The notes beneath the pieces are model-generated. The model was not told the DNA's origin. It ran no database searches and worked only from the letters and a program-made list of their open reading frames with translations. This document shows, piece after piece, positions 281 through 21,000 of a stretch of 32,831 nucleotides of DNA. Source of the DNA: an uncultured Bacteroidales bacterium (GTDB taxonomy: Bacteria; Bacteroidota; Bacteroidia; Bacteroidales; CAIXZF01); the NCBI GenBank assembly GCA_903923925.1, contig CAIXZF010000084.1, positions 1 through 32,831 on the forward strand, in the 5' to 3' direction. Every line of letters starts with the position of its first letter. The stretch's first letter is position 1. A program made the position numbers and the translations under genes.

Positions 281-416
281 AAAATACAGTTGGTAGTGAA
301 TATGAGTCGTAGTTTGAGTTAGAGTTAGAGTATGACCTGAAGTTCACGAATCAGCATTCAAATTCTTTATTATAATGTAATAATTGAGCAATCCCAAACC
401 ATCTTAAGATTTTTAT

Positions 417-11108: not shown

Positions 11109-12017
11109 TTAATTTGTTTTGTTTAATCTTTTTTTAATTTCATTAAACTTATTTTCCAATGAAAGGCTTCCATCGATCCATAATATCTGGAAACCACTCC
11201 TTTCCATTTTTCTGAACCAGGTCATCTGCCGTTTGGAGAATTGGTGAATTGCAATGTTAAGTAGCTGAAACATTGTATTATAATCTAATTCACCTTCAAG
11301 ATATAATGTTAAATATTTATATTCAAGTCCGTACGATTTCAATTGCGTTGATGAAACTCCATTATCCAGCAAATGCTGAACTTCATCAATCATACCGTTC
11401 TCCAGTCTCTCTTTAAGGCGGCTGGTAATTCTGGAACGAACAACATCTCTGTTGTTCGAAATACCAAAAATCAGTTTATTCGGATAGGCATTGCGTTTCG
11501 CATCCAGGGCATGAATTAAACGAAAAGCAGCAACTTCAAGAGCCCTGTAAACTCTATTCCGGTCGACAATATCAGTAGTAGCATGCACCGGGCCATACGA
11601 TTTAAGGCGATCAACAAGTTCAGGCATTGATAAAGAATCCAGTTCATTACGCAATTCCTGATTTACCGGTACATCAACCATATTATATCCACCGAGCACG
11701 GCTTCCAGGTATAAACCAGTACCACCACAGAAAACCGGTAATACATTCCTGGTAACAATATCATTATAGACCTTTTCGAACTGGCAGAGATATTTGTAAA
11801 CATTGAATTCTGTACCAGCATCAGCAATATCAAGCAAATGAACAGGAATATTCTGGTTTTCGACGATATAATCTCCAATATCCTTGCCAGTACCAATATC
11901 CATCTGACGATAAACCTGCCGGGAGTCTGCACTAATAACCTCACCATTCAAACGAAATGCAGTATATGCGGCAAGAGAAGTTTTTCCACTAGCTGTGGGC
12001 CCCAGGATTGTAATCAT
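11109..12017 (-). CDS. miaA: tRNA dimethylallyltransferase
   Basis: MiaA transfers a dimethylallyl group to A37 of tRNAs reading UNN codons, giving i6A. The P-loop GPTASGKT (residues 6-13), ISADSRQVYRQMDIGT, PVFCGGTGLYLEA and the C-terminal IHQFSKRQMTWFRKM are all family motifs. Length is 302 aa. Its ATG overlaps the stop of the upstream glycosyltransferase in an ATGA arrangement (12014-12017), which indicates translational coupling in the Rrf2-ferredoxin-DHOD-GT2 run. No miaB is in the window. Confidence 0.96.
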   Translation of the reverse strand: MITILGPTASGKTSLAAYTAFRLNGEVISADSRQVYRQMDIGTGKDIGDYIVENQNIPVHLLDIADAGTEFNVYKYLCQFEKVYNDIVTRNVLPVFCGGTGLYLEAVLGGYNMVDVPVNQELRNELDSLSMPELVDRLKSYGPVHATTDIVDRNRVYRALEVAAFRLIHALDAKRNAYPNKLIFGISNNRDVVRSRITSRLKERLENGMIDEVQHLLDNGVSSTQLKSYGLEYKYLTLYLEGELDYNTMFQLLNIAIHQFSKRQMTWFRKMERSGFQILWIDGSLSLENKFNEIKKRLNKTN

Positions 12018-13255
12018 GTTAAATATCCTTCAAAATAGTGATTTTTCTGGTAATGTTCCTCAATAATTATCAGCAATTCCCTGGCCTTTTGAAGTATTGA
12101 ATTTTCAGACTCAAGTAAAGAAAAGGTTTCCAGCCATTTTGCGTCGGTATCATTTAGAAACTGGCTATAATACTCAGATAATAACAACCTAAAATTATTT
12201 GAATTCTCAACTTCATCATTTTCAGTTATTGATTTCAGGAACTGTAAAATTCTGAGTGCATCAACTTTCTCGTGACAGGCGCGAACAAATTGCTTTTTCT
12301 TTGATCGCAGTGGTTCCCATATATATTCTTCCTTAAATATTTTCTTGAGGAAAGAATCCATAGGAGTTTGAATATCATGTGTATACAATTCAGCAAAAAG
12401 ATCAGTTGTCTCTTTCACTTTATCGAACAGGCTGGGTGGGTACAGAGGGTAGCTTTTCCATTCGCCGCTCATTCCTTTAATTAATGCCGGCCCGGTACCA
12501 AAAAAGACCCTCGACGATAATCGTGAAGCCGGATAAGCTTTTTCACTGCACCAAAAAAGCAGTTCTCCATATTTCCGTAACTTTTGAAGAAAATAAAAAT
12601 CTTCGCCACTTTTTAAGGGGGTAATTCCTCCTATTCTTGTGTAGGCATCAGCCCTGACAGCCATTGCCGACCCCAGAGCTGTAAAACTATATGGAGATTT
12701 AATTCGCCAAAGGTTTATAGCATAATACCTCATGTAGATTTCATAGCGAAGAATAGCCCTCTCATTTTCGATAGTATCCGCCGGTTGGTGGGTATACGGA
12801 ACAGCTAAAGCAACCGATTCCGGGTGCATTTTCATTGCATCAGCAATAGCTTCCAGATATCGGGGTTTAATTATTGTATCGGCATCCAGGCATAGTAAAA
12901 TATCACTATCAGACGACATCTCCCTGCAGGCATCAAGTGCGGTTTTCCTGGCCCAGCCCACACCAAAATGTTTGCCTTTCCAGCCTTTTCCAGAGGTGCA
13001 TTTATCAATAATGGTAATCGGAAAGCCGTCCCATGATGCAAATTTCTGAAGAGAAATTAAATTATCCCTGCAAATATGCAGTTTTTCAGGATCCTGCCAC
13101 CATGAATCCGGTTGATTAACACATACAATCAGTTTAAAATTCCTGTAAGTCTGTGAATTAATACTGCTGTAGAGACTTTGAAGGTTATACGACTCATCCT
13201 GTACCGGAATTGCAATATAGATACAAGGAATACCAGATGATTGCAATGCTAACAT
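12014..13255 (-). CDS. GT2 family glycosyltransferase
   Basis: The 413-aa protein has a GT-A fold signature: IYIAIPVQDESYNLQSLYSS at the nucleotide-sugar site, a DxD motif in LLCLDADTI, and a GEDFYFLQKL acceptor/catalytic region. No membrane segments are seen, so it is probably soluble or peripheral. The C-terminal 150 residues are charged and helical with no recognised domain. It overlaps the preceding DHOD-like gene by 7 bases (13249-13255) and the following miaA by 4 bases, so all three are likely translated from one mRNA. Donor and acceptor are unknown. Confidence 0.87.
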   Translation of the reverse strand: MLALQSSGIPCIYIAIPVQDESYNLQSLYSSINSQTYRNFKLIVCVNQPDSWWQDPEKLHICRDNLISLQKFASWDGFPITIIDKCTSGKGWKGKHFGVGWARKTALDACREMSSDSDILLCLDADTIIKPRYLEAIADAMKMHPESVALAVPYTHQPADTIENERAILRYEIYMRYYAINLWRIKSPYSFTALGSAMAVRADAYTRIGGITPLKSGEDFYFLQKLRKYGELLFWCSEKAYPASRLSSRVFFGTGPALIKGMSGEWKSYPLYPPSLFDKVKETTDLFAELYTHDIQTPMDSFLKKIFKEEYIWEPLRSKKKQFVRACHEKVDALRILQFLKSITENDEVENSNNFRLLLSEYYSQFLNDTDAKWLETFSLLESENSILQKARELLIIIEEHYQKNHYFEGYLT

Positions 13256-14244
13256 TCTTTTCCAATAACATTTATATGCTGAAGGTATTGAAAGCGTTCA
13301 TAATCAGCAGGATTTTCAGCCTTCTTCAGACTTAGTATGCCATTAAATTCCTTTATACAGGAGTAGCCTTTCCTTTGCATCCAATCTTCAATGCCCTTTA
13401 GCATAATTCCGATTTCGGCGGGGCCTTTCTGATATAAAACAGATGTAATTTCAACGGCCCTGGCACCTGCCAGAAGCATTTTTAGGATTCCTTCGGAATT
13501 GTGAATACCCGTTGAACCGCAGAGATCACACATCACTCTGTCAGATAGAAGTCCAACCCACCTTAGCGAAATTGCCATTTCTTCCGGTGAGCTATAAATA
13601 CTGCCTGCTACAATACTTTGGTTTTCAATATCAATATCAGGAGTAAAGAATCTGTTAAAAAGAACCATCCCCTGAATACCAGTCCAGGACAACTTCAGCG
13701 CCATTTTCGTAAGTCCGGAAAAGTAGGGACTTATTTTTACTGTTAAAGGAATTTTAATGTGCCTGCGTAAGTCGGTAAGAATGTCGAAATAAACCTGTTC
13801 GTTCTCAATACTGCTTCGCATTGGATCGGAGGGCAGTACAAACATATTTAATTCAATTGCATCAGCGCCGGCCTCTTCAACTCTTTTTGCGAAAGGAATC
13901 CATTCATGAAAAGTAGTACAGTTAATGCTTGCAATAATCGGAATATCAAACTCTGATTTACATTTTCCGATTAGTCGCACATAGGCTTCCATTTTAGGAT
14001 GTCTCGACCTGATTCCACCATATTCGGCACCTTTGGGATAGTTTCCGGATTTTTCAAATTTCCTTGATTCGGGACTGCATTCAAGCATCAAATCTTCCTC
14101 GAAAAGCGATTTAAGGACAACGGCAGAAACATTTGCCAATACTAGCTCCCTAATAGACTCAATCCGCGAAGTAAGCGTTGAACTTCCGGCAATTATGGGA
14201 TTCCTGAGATTGAATCCCATGTATTTAGTAGAGAGGTCGATCAT
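13249..14244 (-). CDS. Dihydroorotate-dehydrogenase-like flavoprotein
   Basis: The 331-aa protein has the DHOD TIM-barrel pattern: start MIDLSTKYMGFNLRNPIIAG, IPIIASINCTT, ADAIELNMF, IPLTVKISPYF and a phosphate-binding region GSTGIHNSEGILKMLLAGA. It resembles class-1 DHOD paralogues annotated as dihydroorotate dehydrogenase-like and need not act in pyrimidine synthesis; the classical active-site loop is not obvious. I chose ATG 14244: upstream codons to 14283 fall inside a perfect 14-bp dyad and do not resemble the family. It follows the ferredoxin gene by 52 bases, so the ferredoxin could be its electron partner (inference). Confidence 0.85.
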   Translation of the reverse strand: MIDLSTKYMGFNLRNPIIAGSSTLTSRIESIRELVLANVSAVVLKSLFEEDLMLECSPESRKFEKSGNYPKGAEYGGIRSRHPKMEAYVRLIGKCKSEFDIPIIASINCTTFHEWIPFAKRVEEAGADAIELNMFVLPSDPMRSSIENEQVYFDILTDLRRHIKIPLTVKISPYFSGLTKMALKLSWTGIQGMVLFNRFFTPDIDIENQSIVAGSIYSSPEEMAISLRWVGLLSDRVMCDLCGSTGIHNSEGILKMLLAGARAVEITSVLYQKGPAEIGIMLKGIEDWMQRKGYSCIKEFNGILSLKKAENPADYERFQYLQHINVIGKEC

Positions 14245-14247
14245 AAA

Positions 14248-14282
14248 TGCAGATATTTCCTCAAAATTAGGAAATATCTGCA
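14248..14282. promoter_or_regulatory. Perfect 14-bp dyad centred on a -7-like motif, before the DHOD-like gene
   Basis: TGCAGATATTTCCT (14248-14261) is the exact reverse complement of 14269-14282; the 7-base spacer is 14262-14268. On the minus strand 14262-14269 reads TAATTTTG, an exact TAnnTTTG match, 17 bases before ATG 14244. This could be an internal promoter with a surrounding operator, or an RNA hairpin in the intercistronic gap. No T-run follows the stem, so a simple intrinsic terminator is unlikely. Confidence 0.6.
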
Positions 14283-14296
14283 CAAATTAAGAATGC

Positions 14297-15181
14297 TTAT
14301 ACCCAATCTTCAGCAAGAACTTCTCCCCTGATGCTAATAATTACTTCTTTAAGAGGTATTTTTCTTCCGGAATTTTCAATTGCAATTTTTGCCAGTTGCG
14401 CCAAACCGCCACAACAAGGCACTTCCATCATAATTACTGAAATGGTGTTAACTTTCGAATCAGTAATCATTGAAGTAAGTTTTTCAATATAAATATCTTT
14501 CCCGGAGTCAAGTTTCGGACAGGCAATAGCGAGGGCTTTACCCTTAATAAAGCGCTGATGGAAATTTCCAACACTGAAAGCTGAGCAATCAGAAGCGAGT
14601 ACAAGGTCGGCATTCTGAAGGTAGGTGGCTCTGGGATTCAGCAAGTGAAGCTGAACCGGCCATTGTCTGAGCTCAGAAGGAGCATCTGAAATTTGATCTG
14701 ATTCAGAAATAGAAGAAGTTACAACAGCTTCTTCCCTGAAATCGACGGGCACTGAGCCCTGGCAGCCGCAGCCGCCGCCTGAATGTGAATGTTCGTGCAT
14801 TGTTTTTTGTTTGTTTAATTCTTCACTGGTCGGACTTAAGTCTACATTGTTTTCTTTAATAAATGCTATAGCTTCAGCAAGGAAACCAACTTCATTGTGT
14901 TCTTTAAGATGATGCAGATGAGCAAGAATAGTATTCCGGCCTTTAGGGACCATCATCTCCATTACTTTACGCTCATCATAAGGTTCAGCTTCTCTTTCTT
15001 CAATAGTAATAGCTCCTTCCGGGCAGTGTCCAAGGCAAGCACCCAGGCCATCGCAGAAAAGATCGCTGATAAGTCGCACTTTCCCGTCAATTAATTGTAA
15101 AGCGCCTTCGTGACAGTTCGGGATACAAAGCCCACATCCATTACAAAGCTCTTCGTCAATGCTTATAATGTTTCTCTTCAT
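14297..15181 (-). CDS. Ferredoxin-domain iron-sulfur protein
   Basis: The 294-aa protein begins with a ferredoxin module: C13-C16-C19-C23 (CNGCGLCIPNC) is a full 4Fe-4S motif, while the second, CDGLGACLGHCP, has C43, C49 and C53 but Leu46 where the second Cys is usual. I recall the CDGLGAC pattern as a family trait in anaerobe ferredoxins. Next comes a flexible linker with EHSHSGGGCGCQG (about residue 130) and a C-terminal domain with LASDCSAF, IACPKLDS and EVPCCGGL, likely further metal ligands. It is a probable electron carrier. It starts 1 base after the Rrf2 stop, so the two are a tight pair. Confidence 0.85.
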   Translation of the reverse strand: MKRNIISIDEELCNGCGLCIPNCHEGALQLIDGKVRLISDLFCDGLGACLGHCPEGAITIEEREAEPYDERKVMEMMVPKGRNTILAHLHHLKEHNEVGFLAEAIAFIKENNVDLSPTSEELNKQKTMHEHSHSGGGCGCQGSVPVDFREEAVVTSSISESDQISDAPSELRQWPVQLHLLNPRATYLQNADLVLASDCSAFSVGNFHQRFIKGKALAIACPKLDSGKDIYIEKLTSMITDSKVNTISVIMMEVPCCGGLAQLAKIAIENSGRKIPLKEVIISIRGEVLAEDWV

Positions 15182-15182
15182 T

Positions 15183-15596
15183 TTAATTCTTTTTTAGTAT
15201 GATGTCACCAATTGTTTTTTCATAAAGGTAGGTTCTGAATTCTTCTGTTAATTTTCCTGCTATACCTCCAAAAACACATTCTTTAAAAGGGCACTCAGGC
15301 CTGGCGTGCATACACTTATGGATTGTAGGAAATTCACCTTCAATAAGATTATAGACATCAATCAGCCGAATTTCACTGGCAGGCACATTAAGTAGGAAAC
15401 CGCCTTTGGGGCCTCGTCCGGATTTCAAAAGTTTATGTTTTACAAGTATTTGAAGAATCTTAGAAGTGTGGTTTCTGGAAAATCCCGTGATCTCTGAAAC
15501 CAGAATTCCGTTAATTATTCCATCACTGCCAGCGATAACCGCCAGACTATGTATTCCAATAGAAACAGCTTCTGAAATATTAATGACTCTGGACAT
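15183..15596 (-). CDS. Rrf2 family transcriptional regulator (first paralogue)
   Basis: The 137-aa protein has the Rrf2 winged-helix pattern: SEAVSIGIHSLAVIA, a recognition region TGFSRNHTSKILQILVKHKLL and the wing RGPKGGFLL. Three cysteines, C95, C102 and C107 (spacing Cx6Cx4C), match the Fe-S ligand set of redox/NO/iron-sensing Rrf2 proteins. It heads the ferredoxin-DHOD-GT2-miaA run with 1 base to the ferredoxin. A -7 match and an adjacent dyad lie just upstream, consistent with autoregulation (inference). It is clearly similar to the second Rrf2 gene next door, suggesting a tandem duplication. Confidence 0.92.
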   Translation of the reverse strand: MSRVINISEAVSIGIHSLAVIAGSDGIINGILVSEITGFSRNHTSKILQILVKHKLLKSGRGPKGGFLLNVPASEIRLIDVYNLIEGEFPTIHKCMHARPECPFKECVFGGIAGKLTEEFRTYLYEKTIGDIILKKN

Positions 15597-15602
15597 CTTT
15601 TA

Positions 15603-15624
15603 GGTAATTCAGTATTTAATTACC
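15603..15624. promoter_or_regulatory. Dyad between the -7 element and start of the first Rrf2 gene
   Basis: GGTAATT (15603-15609) and AATTACC (15618-15624) are perfect inverted repeats with an 8-base spacer, a 22-bp dyad. It lies directly downstream of the -7 motif and ends 7 bases before the ATG, so a bound regulator would cover the transcription start. This size and placement fit an Rrf2 autoregulatory operator, but it is only a candidate. Confidence 0.5.
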
Positions 15625-15676: not shown

Positions 15677-16075
15677 TTAAAGGTAGGATAGCAGGGTTTG
15701 CTTTCTCAGGTAATCCCGGATTTCTATTGTCAGCTTTCCAACAATGTTATCCATCAGGCACTGATCAAAAGGGCAGATTGGATTCTCCATAGCACACTTT
15801 GTTACCGTAATAATTCCATCTATCGACTCATAGATCTGTAGTAAGGTAATCTGATCAGCAGGTTTTTTAAGACCGAAACCACCAGAGGGGCCTCTGTTTG
15901 AAATAAGGAAATTGTCTTTAACGAGACGTTGTAAAACTTTAGCTACATGATGTCTGGAAGAACCAGTAGCTTCAGAAATTTGTGTAACATTCAACATATC
16001 AGATGATTTCGCTATTAGAACCATGCTGTGAATGCCTATTGAAGCAGCTTCTGAAAAACTTACAATTTTTGCCAA
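15677..16075 (-). CDS. Rrf2 family transcriptional regulator (second paralogue)
   Basis: The 132-aa protein is a paralogue of the neighbouring Rrf2 gene: SEAASIGIHSMVLIA, TGSSRHHVAKVLQRLVKDNFL, the wing RGPSGGFGL and three cysteines C94, C101 and C106 in the same Cx6Cx4C spacing, so it probably also carries an Fe-S cluster. The start is a TTG at 16075; it aligns exactly with the ATG of the first paralogue and no upstream ATG fits. The 80-base gap to the first Rrf2 gene contains that gene's promoter, so this one may be a separate unit. It is divergent from rnz. Confidence 0.9.
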   Translation of the reverse strand: MAKIVSFSEAASIGIHSMVLIAKSSDMLNVTQISEATGSSRHHVAKVLQRLVKDNFLISNRGPSGGFGLKKPADQITLLQIYESIDGIITVTKCAMENPICPFDQCLMDNIVGKLTIEIRDYLRKQTLLSYL

Positions 16076-16096
16076 TTATCTAAGGATTTGAGTACC

Positions 16097-17169: not shown

Positions 17170-18018
17170 ATGAATATCCTTATTGCCGACAGTGGCAGTT
17201 CAAAAACAGATTGGTGTTTCCTTCGGGAGAACAGCCCGCTTGTTGAAATCCAGACCCCGGGATTAAATCCCTATTTCCTCGACCGCGATGGAATTGAATC
17301 GATATTACTTAAAGAACTGGCACCCTATATTTACTTCGAAAAAGTAGATGAGCTATATTTCTATGGTGCCGGCCTTGGATCTGAGGTCAACAGAAACCGA
17401 CTGGATGATGTTATTTCCGACCAATTCAGCAATGCTGACATTCACCTTGAAACGGATATGCTAGGTGCTGCCAGGGGCCTTTTCGGAAAAGATGAAGGTA
17501 TAGCCTGCATCGCAGGAACAGGTTCAAATGGATGCCTTTACAAAAATGGTACTATTGTTCAGCAGCTCCCATCGTTAGGCTATATTTTAGGGGATGAAGG
17601 CAGTGGAACCTACCTCGGGAAGCAGCTTATAAAGCTCTGGCTTACAAACGAATTACCTTTAGAATTAAAGGTGAAATTTGAAGAAAAATACAGGTATTCA
17701 AGGTCACAGCTTCTGGAAATTATTTATCGTCAACCCAACCCCAATATTTTTCTGGCCGGTTTCGCAGGATTTTTTGCTGCAAACATATCACATCCTGAAA
17801 TCAACTCCATCGTAATGGAAGGCTTTTCAAGACTCATTCAGCAAATGGTAATGAAAGTTGATAATTTCGCAACTTTTCCCATAGGGTTTTGCGGGTCAAT
17901 TGCATGGCATTTCCAGGATCAACTCCGTGAAGCAGCCAGTTTACAGGGTATTGTGATTCACACAGTGGTTAAGAATCCCATGTCGGGTTTGCAAAAATAC
18001 CACTCAACAGAAATTTAA
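17170..18018 (+). CDS. BadF/BadG/BcrA/BcrD-type ATPase, N-acetylglucosamine-kinase-like
   Basis: The 282-aa protein has an ASKHA (actin-like) ATPase fold: phosphate-1 motif ADSGSSKTDW (6-15), phosphate-2 region CIAGTGSNG (113-121) and GYILGDEGSGTYLGKQLI (137-154), which matches bacterial and eukaryotic N-acetylglucosamine kinases. It lacks the cysteine-containing motif of the 2-hydroxyacyl-CoA dehydratase activators, so a sugar-kinase role in amino-sugar salvage is more likely (inference). It is 11 bases downstream of rnz. A strong hairpin follows its stop and separates it from the convergent M4 protease. Confidence 0.85.
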   Translation: MNILIADSGSSKTDWCFLRENSPLVEIQTPGLNPYFLDRDGIESILLKELAPYIYFEKVDELYFYGAGLGSEVNRNRLDDVISDQFSNADIHLETDMLGAARGLFGKDEGIACIAGTGSNGCLYKNGTIVQQLPSLGYILGDEGSGTYLGKQLIKLWLTNELPLELKVKFEEKYRYSRSQLLEIIYRQPNPNIFLAGFAGFFAANISHPEINSIVMEGFSRLIQQMVMKVDNFATFPIGFCGSIAWHFQDQLREAASLQGIVIHTVVKNPMSGLQKYHSTEI

Positions 18019-18028
18019 GCATAAAAAA

Positions 18029-18071
18029 CACTATGCCAGCATTTTGACGAATCGAAATGGCTGGCATAGTG
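18029..18071 (-). terminator. Strong intrinsic terminator between convergent genes
   Basis: CACTATGCCAGC (18029-18040) pairs perfectly with GCTGGCATAGTG (18060-18071), a 12-bp stem that can extend by ATTT/AAAT with one bulge. On the minus strand the stem is followed by TTTTTTAT, the classic U-run, so it mainly terminates the M4 protease gene. The plus side lacks a T-run, but the hairpin may still help stop transcription from the kinase gene. Confidence 0.8.
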
Positions 18072-18087
18072 ATAAACAAGTAAGATT

Positions 18088-21000
18088 TTACCTGACGATA
18101 AATCTTTTGTAAACCGAATTTGAACGATTGCTTACATTCAGCATATAAATTCCAGGACTGAAACCTGAAACATCAATATTGCCCTGATAATGTGAAGCGG
18201 CATTCAGATTCCTTACCAAAACTTCATTACCAAGAAGATCAACTACCTTCATTACAGCAGCATCTGGATTCGTAAAGGAAATATCAACGAACAGGTTATC
18301 ACTAACAGGATTTGGTGAAATCAGGATGCCTGCAAATTTATCAGCATCCACAATGCCAGTTGTTGTGCTAACTATGGATTGGCTGGTTGAATTATTACCG
18401 CATGAATTTGTTACGGCAAGTGAAACGGAATACGTTCCCGGAGAGGAATAAATATGAATAGGATTTTCAAGAGTAGAATTAGTACCATCACCAAAATCCC
18501 AGAAGAACAAGTTCCCATCAGTGGATGTATTCGTAAAATTCACGTGGTTACCAGCGTACGACAGATAACTGAAAGATGCAACAGGTGCGGCATAATTGAT
18601 AAAGGCACTAACTTCAATTCTTTCGCTGATGCAGGATGGTTCCTGAATCTCCCAATCGTAAAAGAAGTAATAATAATTGGTAGGGCTTGTGAATGCACTG
18701 CTTTTAGTAATCGAAATCATATTGCTGATGTTATATGGGTAGGTGCAACCAGCATTATTTCTATATAAATTTGGTGCAACTGCCGAAGCGAGCTCCAGAT
18801 CAGTGCCAACAGGAATATTGAAATTCAGGGTGATCCGGCTTTCACCGGCAGGAATATTAATGGTAGCAGTTTGCAGTACACTTCCACTGGCATCACGTAG
18901 CTCAACGGTTCTGTTAGCAGCTCCCTGTGCATAGACTTTTACTGATTTCAGCACAACTGGCACCATACAGTTAAACTGAAGATAATGTGAAGCGTTTCCG
19001 CTGAAATTTCCACCACCGCCGGCATTGGTAGGTTTGCCACCATAAGCAGGAGGTAGAACATTCTGACTTTCAACATAATAATGCTGACTCTGGCTCAGAA
19101 CAGGTGTAGTATAAGAAGTACCGGTGTAAAAAGGTGTTCCACCAGTCGGCGTTGTAAACCATTTTACAGAATCGGCAGCAATTGCAGTCAGTGTGAGAGA
19201 AGCTGCACCGCCACAATTTGATGCTGAAGTAACAACAGGAGCGGCTGGAAGATTAATTAAAACAAATCCTGCTTTCACAATAGTATCTGAACCACAGGCC
19301 GTATCATTTGAATAGAGGGTAACATTGTAAGTGCCACCAGAAGTGTAACTATGAACAGGATTAAGAACAGTAGCTGTTGTTCCATCACCAAAATCCCACA
19401 AATAATTTGTTCCGTTTACAGTGTTGTTGGTAAAATGAATCTGGGCAGGAAGTTGGCAGAACTCTGTGGTTCCTGCTTCAAAATCGCAATGTACTCCCGG
19501 GAAATATGGACTTCCCAGACCAACGGCATAAAAAGCATTTGTTACAGTTTCAACTTCAGGGGTACAACCTCCGAAAAGTTGTTTTGCAGATTCTATTGAA
19601 TAGAAGCGGGCATCTGCATAATCAGATCCTTCAACAAGGTAATCGGTTAAGGTCTTATAGGCCACAGCTGCTGCTTTATCAATTGTCATTGCGGTAACAT
19701 TGTAAACATCACCATTATCATTTGTTCCTGAACCACCAACTGAAGCCAGGTAAAACCAGTATCCAAGAACAACACTGTTTGTGTGAACTCCTCCATTATC
19801 TCCTGTTCCAGTATACCAATTTGTACCATGATAGGTGTCGGGAAGTTGCATACTCGTTGGATTAGATAAAGAACGGATTGATTCCCCGATATCATCACCC
19901 ATTTCCCAGTTTGCTAAAGTTGGTTTACCAAAGAACTCTATTGCTGTTCCAAAAATATCGCTATATCCTTCGTTTAACGCACCTGACTCACCATTGTATA
20001 TAAGGTTGGCTTCATGCTCATCCAGACCATGAGTAATTTCATGACCACAAATATCCAAAGCAGTGAGAGGAGACCATACGTTATCACCATCACCATAGGT
20101 CATTACCTGACCATCCCAGAATGCATTGGCATATTGAACATCGTAATGCACATAACTCATTAATTTAAAGCCATTTCCATCTATAGAATTCCTGCCATAC
20201 TTTTGCATAAAATAGTCATAGGTCATTTCAGCTCCCCAATGTGCATCTGAGGCAACTTCATCCATCTGAGGATTAACATTATTCCACAAATTATCAGCGT
20301 CCGTAAAATCAACTGCAGCTCCATAATTGGTGCCAGTTTGCATATTGTAAGTTTCGATACCTTGTCCGCGACCCACTTCCCTTAAGCGGAAAATTTCAGC
20401 GTTTAAATCTGTAACAATATCACGGGTTCCTGAATACCTTGTAATAGCACTACCCAAAGTATCTGAATGATGGATTCTGTTGTTTGTAAATATTACAGCT
20501 CCCGAAGCAGCGTCAATATAAACATATTGACGATTCAATGGTTTGTCGGCATAAATATCAAATTTGTAGGCATAAACATGTGCTGATGAATTCTCTGAAT
20601 TTAAAGGAAAAAGAACAATTTCACCCTTTGGATAGAATGATGCATTTGGATCGCCGGTTATTTTCTTCAAGAATTGTTCTTCAAGCGGGCTTTGCCATTT
20701 GTAATGATCAGCATTCATATATTCCAGCGCTTTCACCAGGGCATCCACTTCAGTTAACAGTACATCATTTGAAATAGTAATATTCCGTAAGATTTTACCA
20801 TTCATTGAAGACACTTTTCCTGCAGTTTCATGAAGAATAAAATTGGCGTCTTTTACTGGAATTCCCTGGTAAAGCTGTTGAGTACGATAATGAACTACGC
20901 CAGCCTGATCAGCATGTTTTGAAACAACAACATATTGAAAATCAGAGCTGCAATTCAGATTATTGCTCATCCATTCTTTAGTATTTTTCTGATCAAACTG

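Follow-up and report, generated by a model that had tools for sequence, protein, structure and literature searches.

A perfect inverted repeat enclosing a promoter-like motif precedes a dihydroorotate-dehydrogenase-like gene in an uncultured Bacteroidales bacterium

We identified a perfect inverted repeat between a ferredoxin-type gene and a gene encoding a dihydroorotate-dehydrogenase-like (DHOD-like) protein in a contig of 32,831 nucleotides (the window) from an uncultured Bacteroidales bacterium. The repeat (14248–14282) consists of two 14-nt arms (14248–14261 and 14269–14282) that are 100% complementary and separated by a 7-nt loop. The RNA of the coding (minus) strand is predicted to fold into a stem-loop of approximately -20.6 kcal/mol with one additional G-U pair (14283/14247). 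An exact match to the consensus TAnnTTTG (and to TAHHTTTG), TAATTTTG, lies at 14269–14262 on the minus strand; the 5' arm ends with its first T, and its other seven nucleotides form the loop. Both the dyad and the exact -7 match in its center, 17 bases before the start codon, had been pointed out in an initial annotation made from the sequence alone, and both are confirmed here. The best reading of this arrangement, to which we give somewhat less than even confidence, is a promoter-in-hairpin insulator that may work like those of phage T4 gene e and I-TevI.

All of the genes surrounding the dyad are encoded on the minus strand. Two Rrf2-family regulators (b, 15677–16075; a, 15183–15596) are followed by the ferredoxin-type gene (14297–15181), the DHOD-like gene (NF005741; 13249–14244), a family 2 glycosyltransferase gene (GT2; 12014–13255) and miaA (11109–12017). 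Read along this strand, the ferredoxin stop codon (TAA, 14299–14297) is followed by 14 nt, the stem-loop (14282–14248), 3 nt and the ATG of the DHOD-like gene at 14244. The start of GT2 overlaps the DHOD-like stop (ATGTTAG) and the start of miaA overlaps the GT2 stop (ATGA), so a block at the DHOD-like gene might affect all three genes.

The dyad is the longest perfect inverted repeat in the window at loops of 3–20 nt. In 40 simulated first-order Markov sequences of window length, 13-bp arms occurred 0.025 times per sequence and arms of at least 14 bp did not occur. A 763,833-base sample of the genome, window included (16.5% of 4,615,474), contains ten perfect dyads with arms of at least 14 bp and loops of 3–15 nt, or about one per 76 kb; such a dyad alone is therefore not rare in this genome. 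Judged by eye from their flanks, seven of the ten are terminator-like and an eighth is borderline; the ninth is inside a coding region and the tenth is the dyad described here. What is unusual is a 14-bp dyad that abuts a start codon yet is not terminator-like. A genome search for further copies, suggested in the initial annotation, returned no second copy at up to three mismatches, and at the same threshold the genome of the window is the only one, among 295 from the order, that contains the dyad. We rejected a repeat or mobile-element family because no other copy occurs in the genome or in the 294 others. There are no Rfam matches at the gathering score in the window.

The motif in the loop is credibly the -7 element of a Bacteroidota housekeeping (sigma-ABfr) promoter. 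The -7 element of Flavobacterium johnsoniae is given as TAHHTTTG in passages of PMC6847099, and the consensus TAnnTTTG is agreed in passages of PMC9723704 and PMC7366714. Over the window as a whole there is no excess of TAnnTTTG (31 sites against 40 expected). Its position relative to genes was examined with a reversed motif as the control, which does not preserve dinucleotides, and with a gene set of crude open-reading-frame picks (at least 80–100 aa) in which some starts are wrong. On this basis, the last 60 nt before starts hold 47 sites, the loop site included, against 4 for the reversed motif in tandem gaps of at least 40 nt (153 genes), and 49 against 3 in divergent gaps of at least 40 nt (110 genes). 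Tandem gaps shorter than 40 nt hold 2 against 1 (169 genes), and those of 40–59 nt, counted over the first portion of the sample, hold 5, again with the loop site, against 0 (17 genes). The loop motif lies 25 nt before the ATG, an ordinary place for such a site; the bin at 20–29 nt holds 11 of 60 sites in gaps of at least 60 nt.

No TTG that could belong to a -33 element is found 17–23 nt upstream of the loop motif as read from the sequence. Elsewhere in the genome the element is also weak, with 12 occurrences of TTG at 19–21 nt upstream over 57 TAnnTTTG sites, and in F. johnsoniae the -33 element is described as much less evident (PMC6847099). As there is no -33 TTTG at a suitable spacing, and as this element is weak here and less evident in F. 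johnsoniae, we call the loop motif promoter-like and not a proven promoter. A TAnnTTTG match is also found within 100 nt upstream of 29 of 61 orthologues of the DHOD-like gene (2 of 61 for the reversed motif). The corresponding gap of a genome of the same family (G001) contains one, TACTTTTG, at -68. Together with the enrichment before starts, these observations make the internal promoter proposed in the initial annotation likely, although not proven. According to the parts of PMC6847099 that set out promoter rules for F. johnsoniae, candidates with 4–5 nt between the -7 element and the start were taken as probable promoters. Applied to the loop motif, this spacing predicts a transcription start at 14257–14258 and a leader of 13–14 nt without the 5' arm.

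Several other searches concerning the motif were set aside. A sigma-70 promoter scan applies to another promoter type. An invertible promoter was dismissed since the arms, only 7 nt apart, are presumably too close to invert. The word TAnnTTTGAGGAAATA, comprising the -7 element and the start of the 3' arm, showed no clear enrichment (148 occurrences against 131 backwards at up to two mismatches). Besides the dyad, the genome has one exact match to the -7 element joined to the beginning of the 3' arm, TACTTTTGAGGAAATA, at 17570–17585 of locus L110 on the minus strand. Like the dyad site, it sits 10–25 nt upstream of an ATG whose reading frame is already open from a GTG further 5'; no stem is listed there in the stem scan of the genome sample, and we take the match to be a coincidence.

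The predicted RNA hairpin is strong. The 91-nt stretch around the dyad folds at -24.5 kcal/mol (z -3.68), and none of 200 shuffled sequences is as stable. Among the same crude gene picks, the DHOD-like start region (-22.1 kcal/mol) is the third most stable among 302 genes whose gap is at least 25 nt, and third of 190 tandem genes, in a list whose second entry appears to be an internal ATG. Of 21 perfect stems of at least 8 bp in the last 80 nt of gaps, the dyad stem is the sole one with TAnnTTTG in its loop or within 4 nt of it, and it ends nearest the ATG among the 20 such stems listed. The initial annotation had offered an RNA hairpin as the alternative to an operator, and the geometry (14 nt after a stop codon, 3 nt before an AUG, third of 302) fits the hairpin better. 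The promoter and RNA hairpin ideas combine into one mechanism.

Predicted accessibility depends on where the RNA begins. In read-through RNA (14400–14144) the 3' arm is paired, with unpaired probabilities of 0.00–0.06 over 14261–14248; in RNA from 14258 the leader is open (0.74–0.98). The mean unpaired probability from -20 to +20 is predicted to be 0.40–0.48 for seven 5' ends from 14600 to 14283, 0.55–0.56 for 5' ends at 14276–14264, and 0.67–0.68 for 14258–14257. The AUG itself lies outside the stem, 3 nt past its end, and is predicted to be 0.58–0.68 unpaired even in read-through RNA. Shine-Dalgarno sequences are lacking in the phylum according to the portion of PMC6847099 that treats them, so none is expected at the DHOD-like gene.

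In the proposed insulator, the -7 element in the loop would start transcription inside the 3' arm, near 14258. Because an RNA that starts 4–5 nt past the -7 element lacks the 5' arm, it would carry a short open leader and be translated. Read-through RNA from the Rrf2-Rrf2-ferredoxin genes would instead carry both arms and fold into the stem, which would hinder ribosome loading at the AUG three nucleotides beyond. Given the size of its footprint, a ribosome that stops at the ferredoxin stop codon should fall just short of the stem. Expression of the DHOD-like gene, the glycosyltransferase and miaA would depend largely on the internal promoter and be protected against upstream transcription. We infer the transcription start, the read-through, the translation block and any purpose they may serve; read-through in particular is assumed by this reading, and a single case cannot show selection. 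Counting against the insulator are the missing TTG 17–23 nt upstream, the gap of G001 without the dyad, and the position of the AUG outside the stem and mostly unpaired. In addition, the base at -3 is T, whereas A is favorable in F. johnsoniae in the relevant passages of PMC6847099.

The nearest parallels are found in phage T4. In gene e and I-TevI, as described in parts of PMC3014915 and PMC2988022, the initiation region is hidden by folding of the long transcripts, whereas RNA from a promoter within the hairpin or next to it lacks the 5' strand and is translated. On paper the DHOD-like gene resembles these, with a stem predicted on the long transcript and a promoter-like motif from which RNA would lack the 5' strand. 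It differs in being on a bacterial chromosome, with a Bacteroidota -7 element in the loop and no phage timing programme, and in that the stem stops 3 nt short of the AUG and covers no Shine-Dalgarno sequence that would be needed. For seg43 of Aeromonas phage 25 a hairpin of great stability is predicted directly before the initiation region, which it does not cover, and it is described, in the passages concerned, without a promoter (PMC2988022). The dyad stem is likewise predicted to adjoin the initiation region without covering it, but the dyad differs in its promoter-like motif. In IS10, IS50 and IS200, read-through RNA folds the end repeats and hides the initiation region, which protects the elements from read-through. 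Unlike these, the dyad has no other copy, and no transposase is found among the genes read beside it. Insulation of this kind is known mainly from phages and insertion sequences. Among the literature matches listed for bacterial or insertion-sequence cases, we recognized no case of promoter-in-hairpin control on a bacterial chromosome, which is weak evidence of absence.

If the insulator reading is true, it would offer bacteria a simple means of fusing two gene sets head to tail without coupling their expression. Since a promoter in this phylum requires hardly anything beyond TAnnTTTG, a single event that forms a palindrome could create such an element, and others could be searched for phylum-wide. 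A more specific version, which we regard as doubtful, is that a chromosomal gene set is insulated by the hairpin of its own promoter in such a way that induction of the upstream Rrf2-ferredoxin genes would produce a poorly translated long DHOD-like mRNA and transcription through the internal promoter. Induction may then lower the output of the DHOD-like protein, the glycosyltransferase and MiaA instead of raising it.

The distribution of the genes also speaks for the insulator. A search with the DHOD-like protein found a match in 56 of 59 genomes (own included) and, in another collection, 34 loci. G001, which belongs to the same family, is the sole fetched locus that shares the order Rrf2-ferredoxin-DHOD-GT2-miaA. 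Locus L008 has DHOD-GT2-miaA, and the flank fetched there gives no ferredoxin hit. The ferredoxin protein is matched in 258 of 295 genomes, many of them weakly. In the best 30 ferredoxin loci (L067–L096, fetched with flanks of at most 1.5 kb, two having less than 0.7 kb downstream), an Rrf2 gene adjoins the ferredoxin in 27, and 28 have no DHOD hit; DHOD follows only in the window's locus and G001. From the DHOD-GT2-miaA genes without a ferredoxin hit in L008, and the 28 of 30 ferredoxin loci without a DHOD hit in their flanks, it appears that two units were joined in this family. In 10 of the best 30 loci a protein with the motif MFC(Y/F)QCQE starts within 700 nt downstream of the ferredoxin. 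We take this to be the hybrid cluster protein, and the neighborhood suggests a nitrosative-stress unit.

Conservation of the dyad was compared across the orthologues and the genomes of the order, the only relative found to share the gene order being G001. Upstream of orthologous genes, where the initial annotation had named conservation as a check on its proposal, no 14-bp stem occurs in the 160 nt before any of 61 orthologues; the longest stems there are 11 bp and end at least 80 nt before the ATG. The 111-nt gap of G001 contains no dyad and folds ordinarily (z -0.24; 74 of 200 shuffles as good). One orthologue (L012) has a 9-bp stem ending at -8. Another (L006) has an A/T-only stem of 7 bp with an 8-nt loop, 22 bases in all, that ends 3 nt before the DHOD-like ATG, and this is the nearest thing to the dyad hairpin among the orthologues.

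It is also possible, though rather unlikely, that the dyad functions solely as an RNA hairpin, shielding or marking the 3' end of the ferredoxin mRNA, terminating transcription weakly or reducing translation of the DHOD-like gene, and that the -7 match is incidental. The position of the stem 14 nt past the ferredoxin stop codon, its z-score of -3.68 and the terminator-like appearance by eye of seven of the nine other long dyads in the genome sample are consistent with this. However, a terminator scan of the window does not list the dyad; the miss is narrow, as the tail TTATGATC after the G-U-extended stem has four T in eight where five are needed. Of the 14 pairs in the stem five are G-C, an A/T tract is missing from its flanks, and the background frequency of the motif makes a chance -7 match unlikely.

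We consider it unlikely, slightly more so than the hairpin alone, that the dyad has no function and is a lineage-specific perfect palindrome, produced by template switching or gap shortening beside a real promoter and tolerated since. Template switching produces perfect arms, and the absence of the dyad from G001, despite the same gene order, and from the 294 other genomes of the order fits such an origin. However, a stem at the start codon would be expected to reduce translation of read-through RNA, and could be neutral only if there were little read-through or little use for it.

The initial annotation favored a DNA operator, in which a repressor bound to the dyad over the -7 element blocks the internal promoter, and it named the two Rrf2 proteins as candidates. 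The dyad is centered on the -7 element, two Rrf2 genes lie upstream, and Rrf2-promoter motifs in relatives likewise adjoin a -7 element. Rrf2-gene upstream regions across the order share TATATTTGCG(T/C)ATTCAAATACC(T/G)AAATA running on from the -7 element; a candidate Rrf2 operator, TTTGCG(T/C)ATTCAAATACC(T/G)AAATA, is present in upstream regions from 20 of the loci L068–L093, and in L068 and L073 the other Rrf2 gene has a second sub-type, TTTGTGTGCCGAAATA. We built a score matrix on the 20 nt after the -7 element from the 21 of 33 Rrf2-gene upstream regions that fit a seed chosen by eye; the other 12, among them the second sub-type, do not enter the matrix. With this matrix, candidate operators precede Rrf2 a (15605–15624, minus; 10.8, rank 2) and Rrf2 b (16077–16096, minus; 7.6, rank 7), both unlike the dyad, while the best score at 14240–14300 is -7.3 (rank 353 of 65,624). 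The strongest match in the window (353–372, plus; 15.4) is upstream of a gene at 487–1941 and has no adjacent -7 element. The dyad resembles Rrf2-type operators in its position, the start region of a promoter carrying this -7 element, but does not match the Rrf2-promoter motif of the order, and we rejected Rrf2 as its binder on the negative score.

Recurrence of the dyad core gives the operator some further support. The 9+9-base core is found at up to three mismatches in 13 places in the genome (12 besides the dyad) against 3 for the backwards control. However, all seven core places fetched of the 12 are deep inside open frames of at least 575 codons. The half-site TGCAGATATTTCC was considered and rejected: at up to one mismatch it has 25 places, two of them the dyad arms, against 0 backwards, and the 13 inspected of the 23 other places are in open frames. 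The frame rule used for core and half-site would also class the dyad itself as in frame. The whole dyad has no other copy at up to three mismatches and is found upstream of none of the 61 orthologues. Of the three further relatives of the DHOD-like gene in its own genome, two lack it close to their starts. Binding of a regulator to the dyad is thus not borne out by these comparisons; some regulator other than Rrf2 is possible, and the operator as a whole appears quite improbable. The dyad also lies within a frame open with the DHOD-like gene from a GTG at 14283, but a coding role in which the protein begins there is highly implausible, as the position equivalent to 14244 is an ATG in 55 of 61 orthologues.

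Three other inverted repeats were observed. A 12-bp perfect dyad with a 19-nt loop (18029–18071) lies between the ends of two convergent genes in the window and is perhaps a terminator. In locus L110, a 16-bp perfect dyad (19642–19677) is in a coding region 52 nt from the start codon of a 706-aa protein that appears comEC-like by eye. Finally, the region 3' of the ferredoxin gene in L075 contains repeated inverted words around GACGCGATTTATCGCGTC that resemble a small palindromic repeat.
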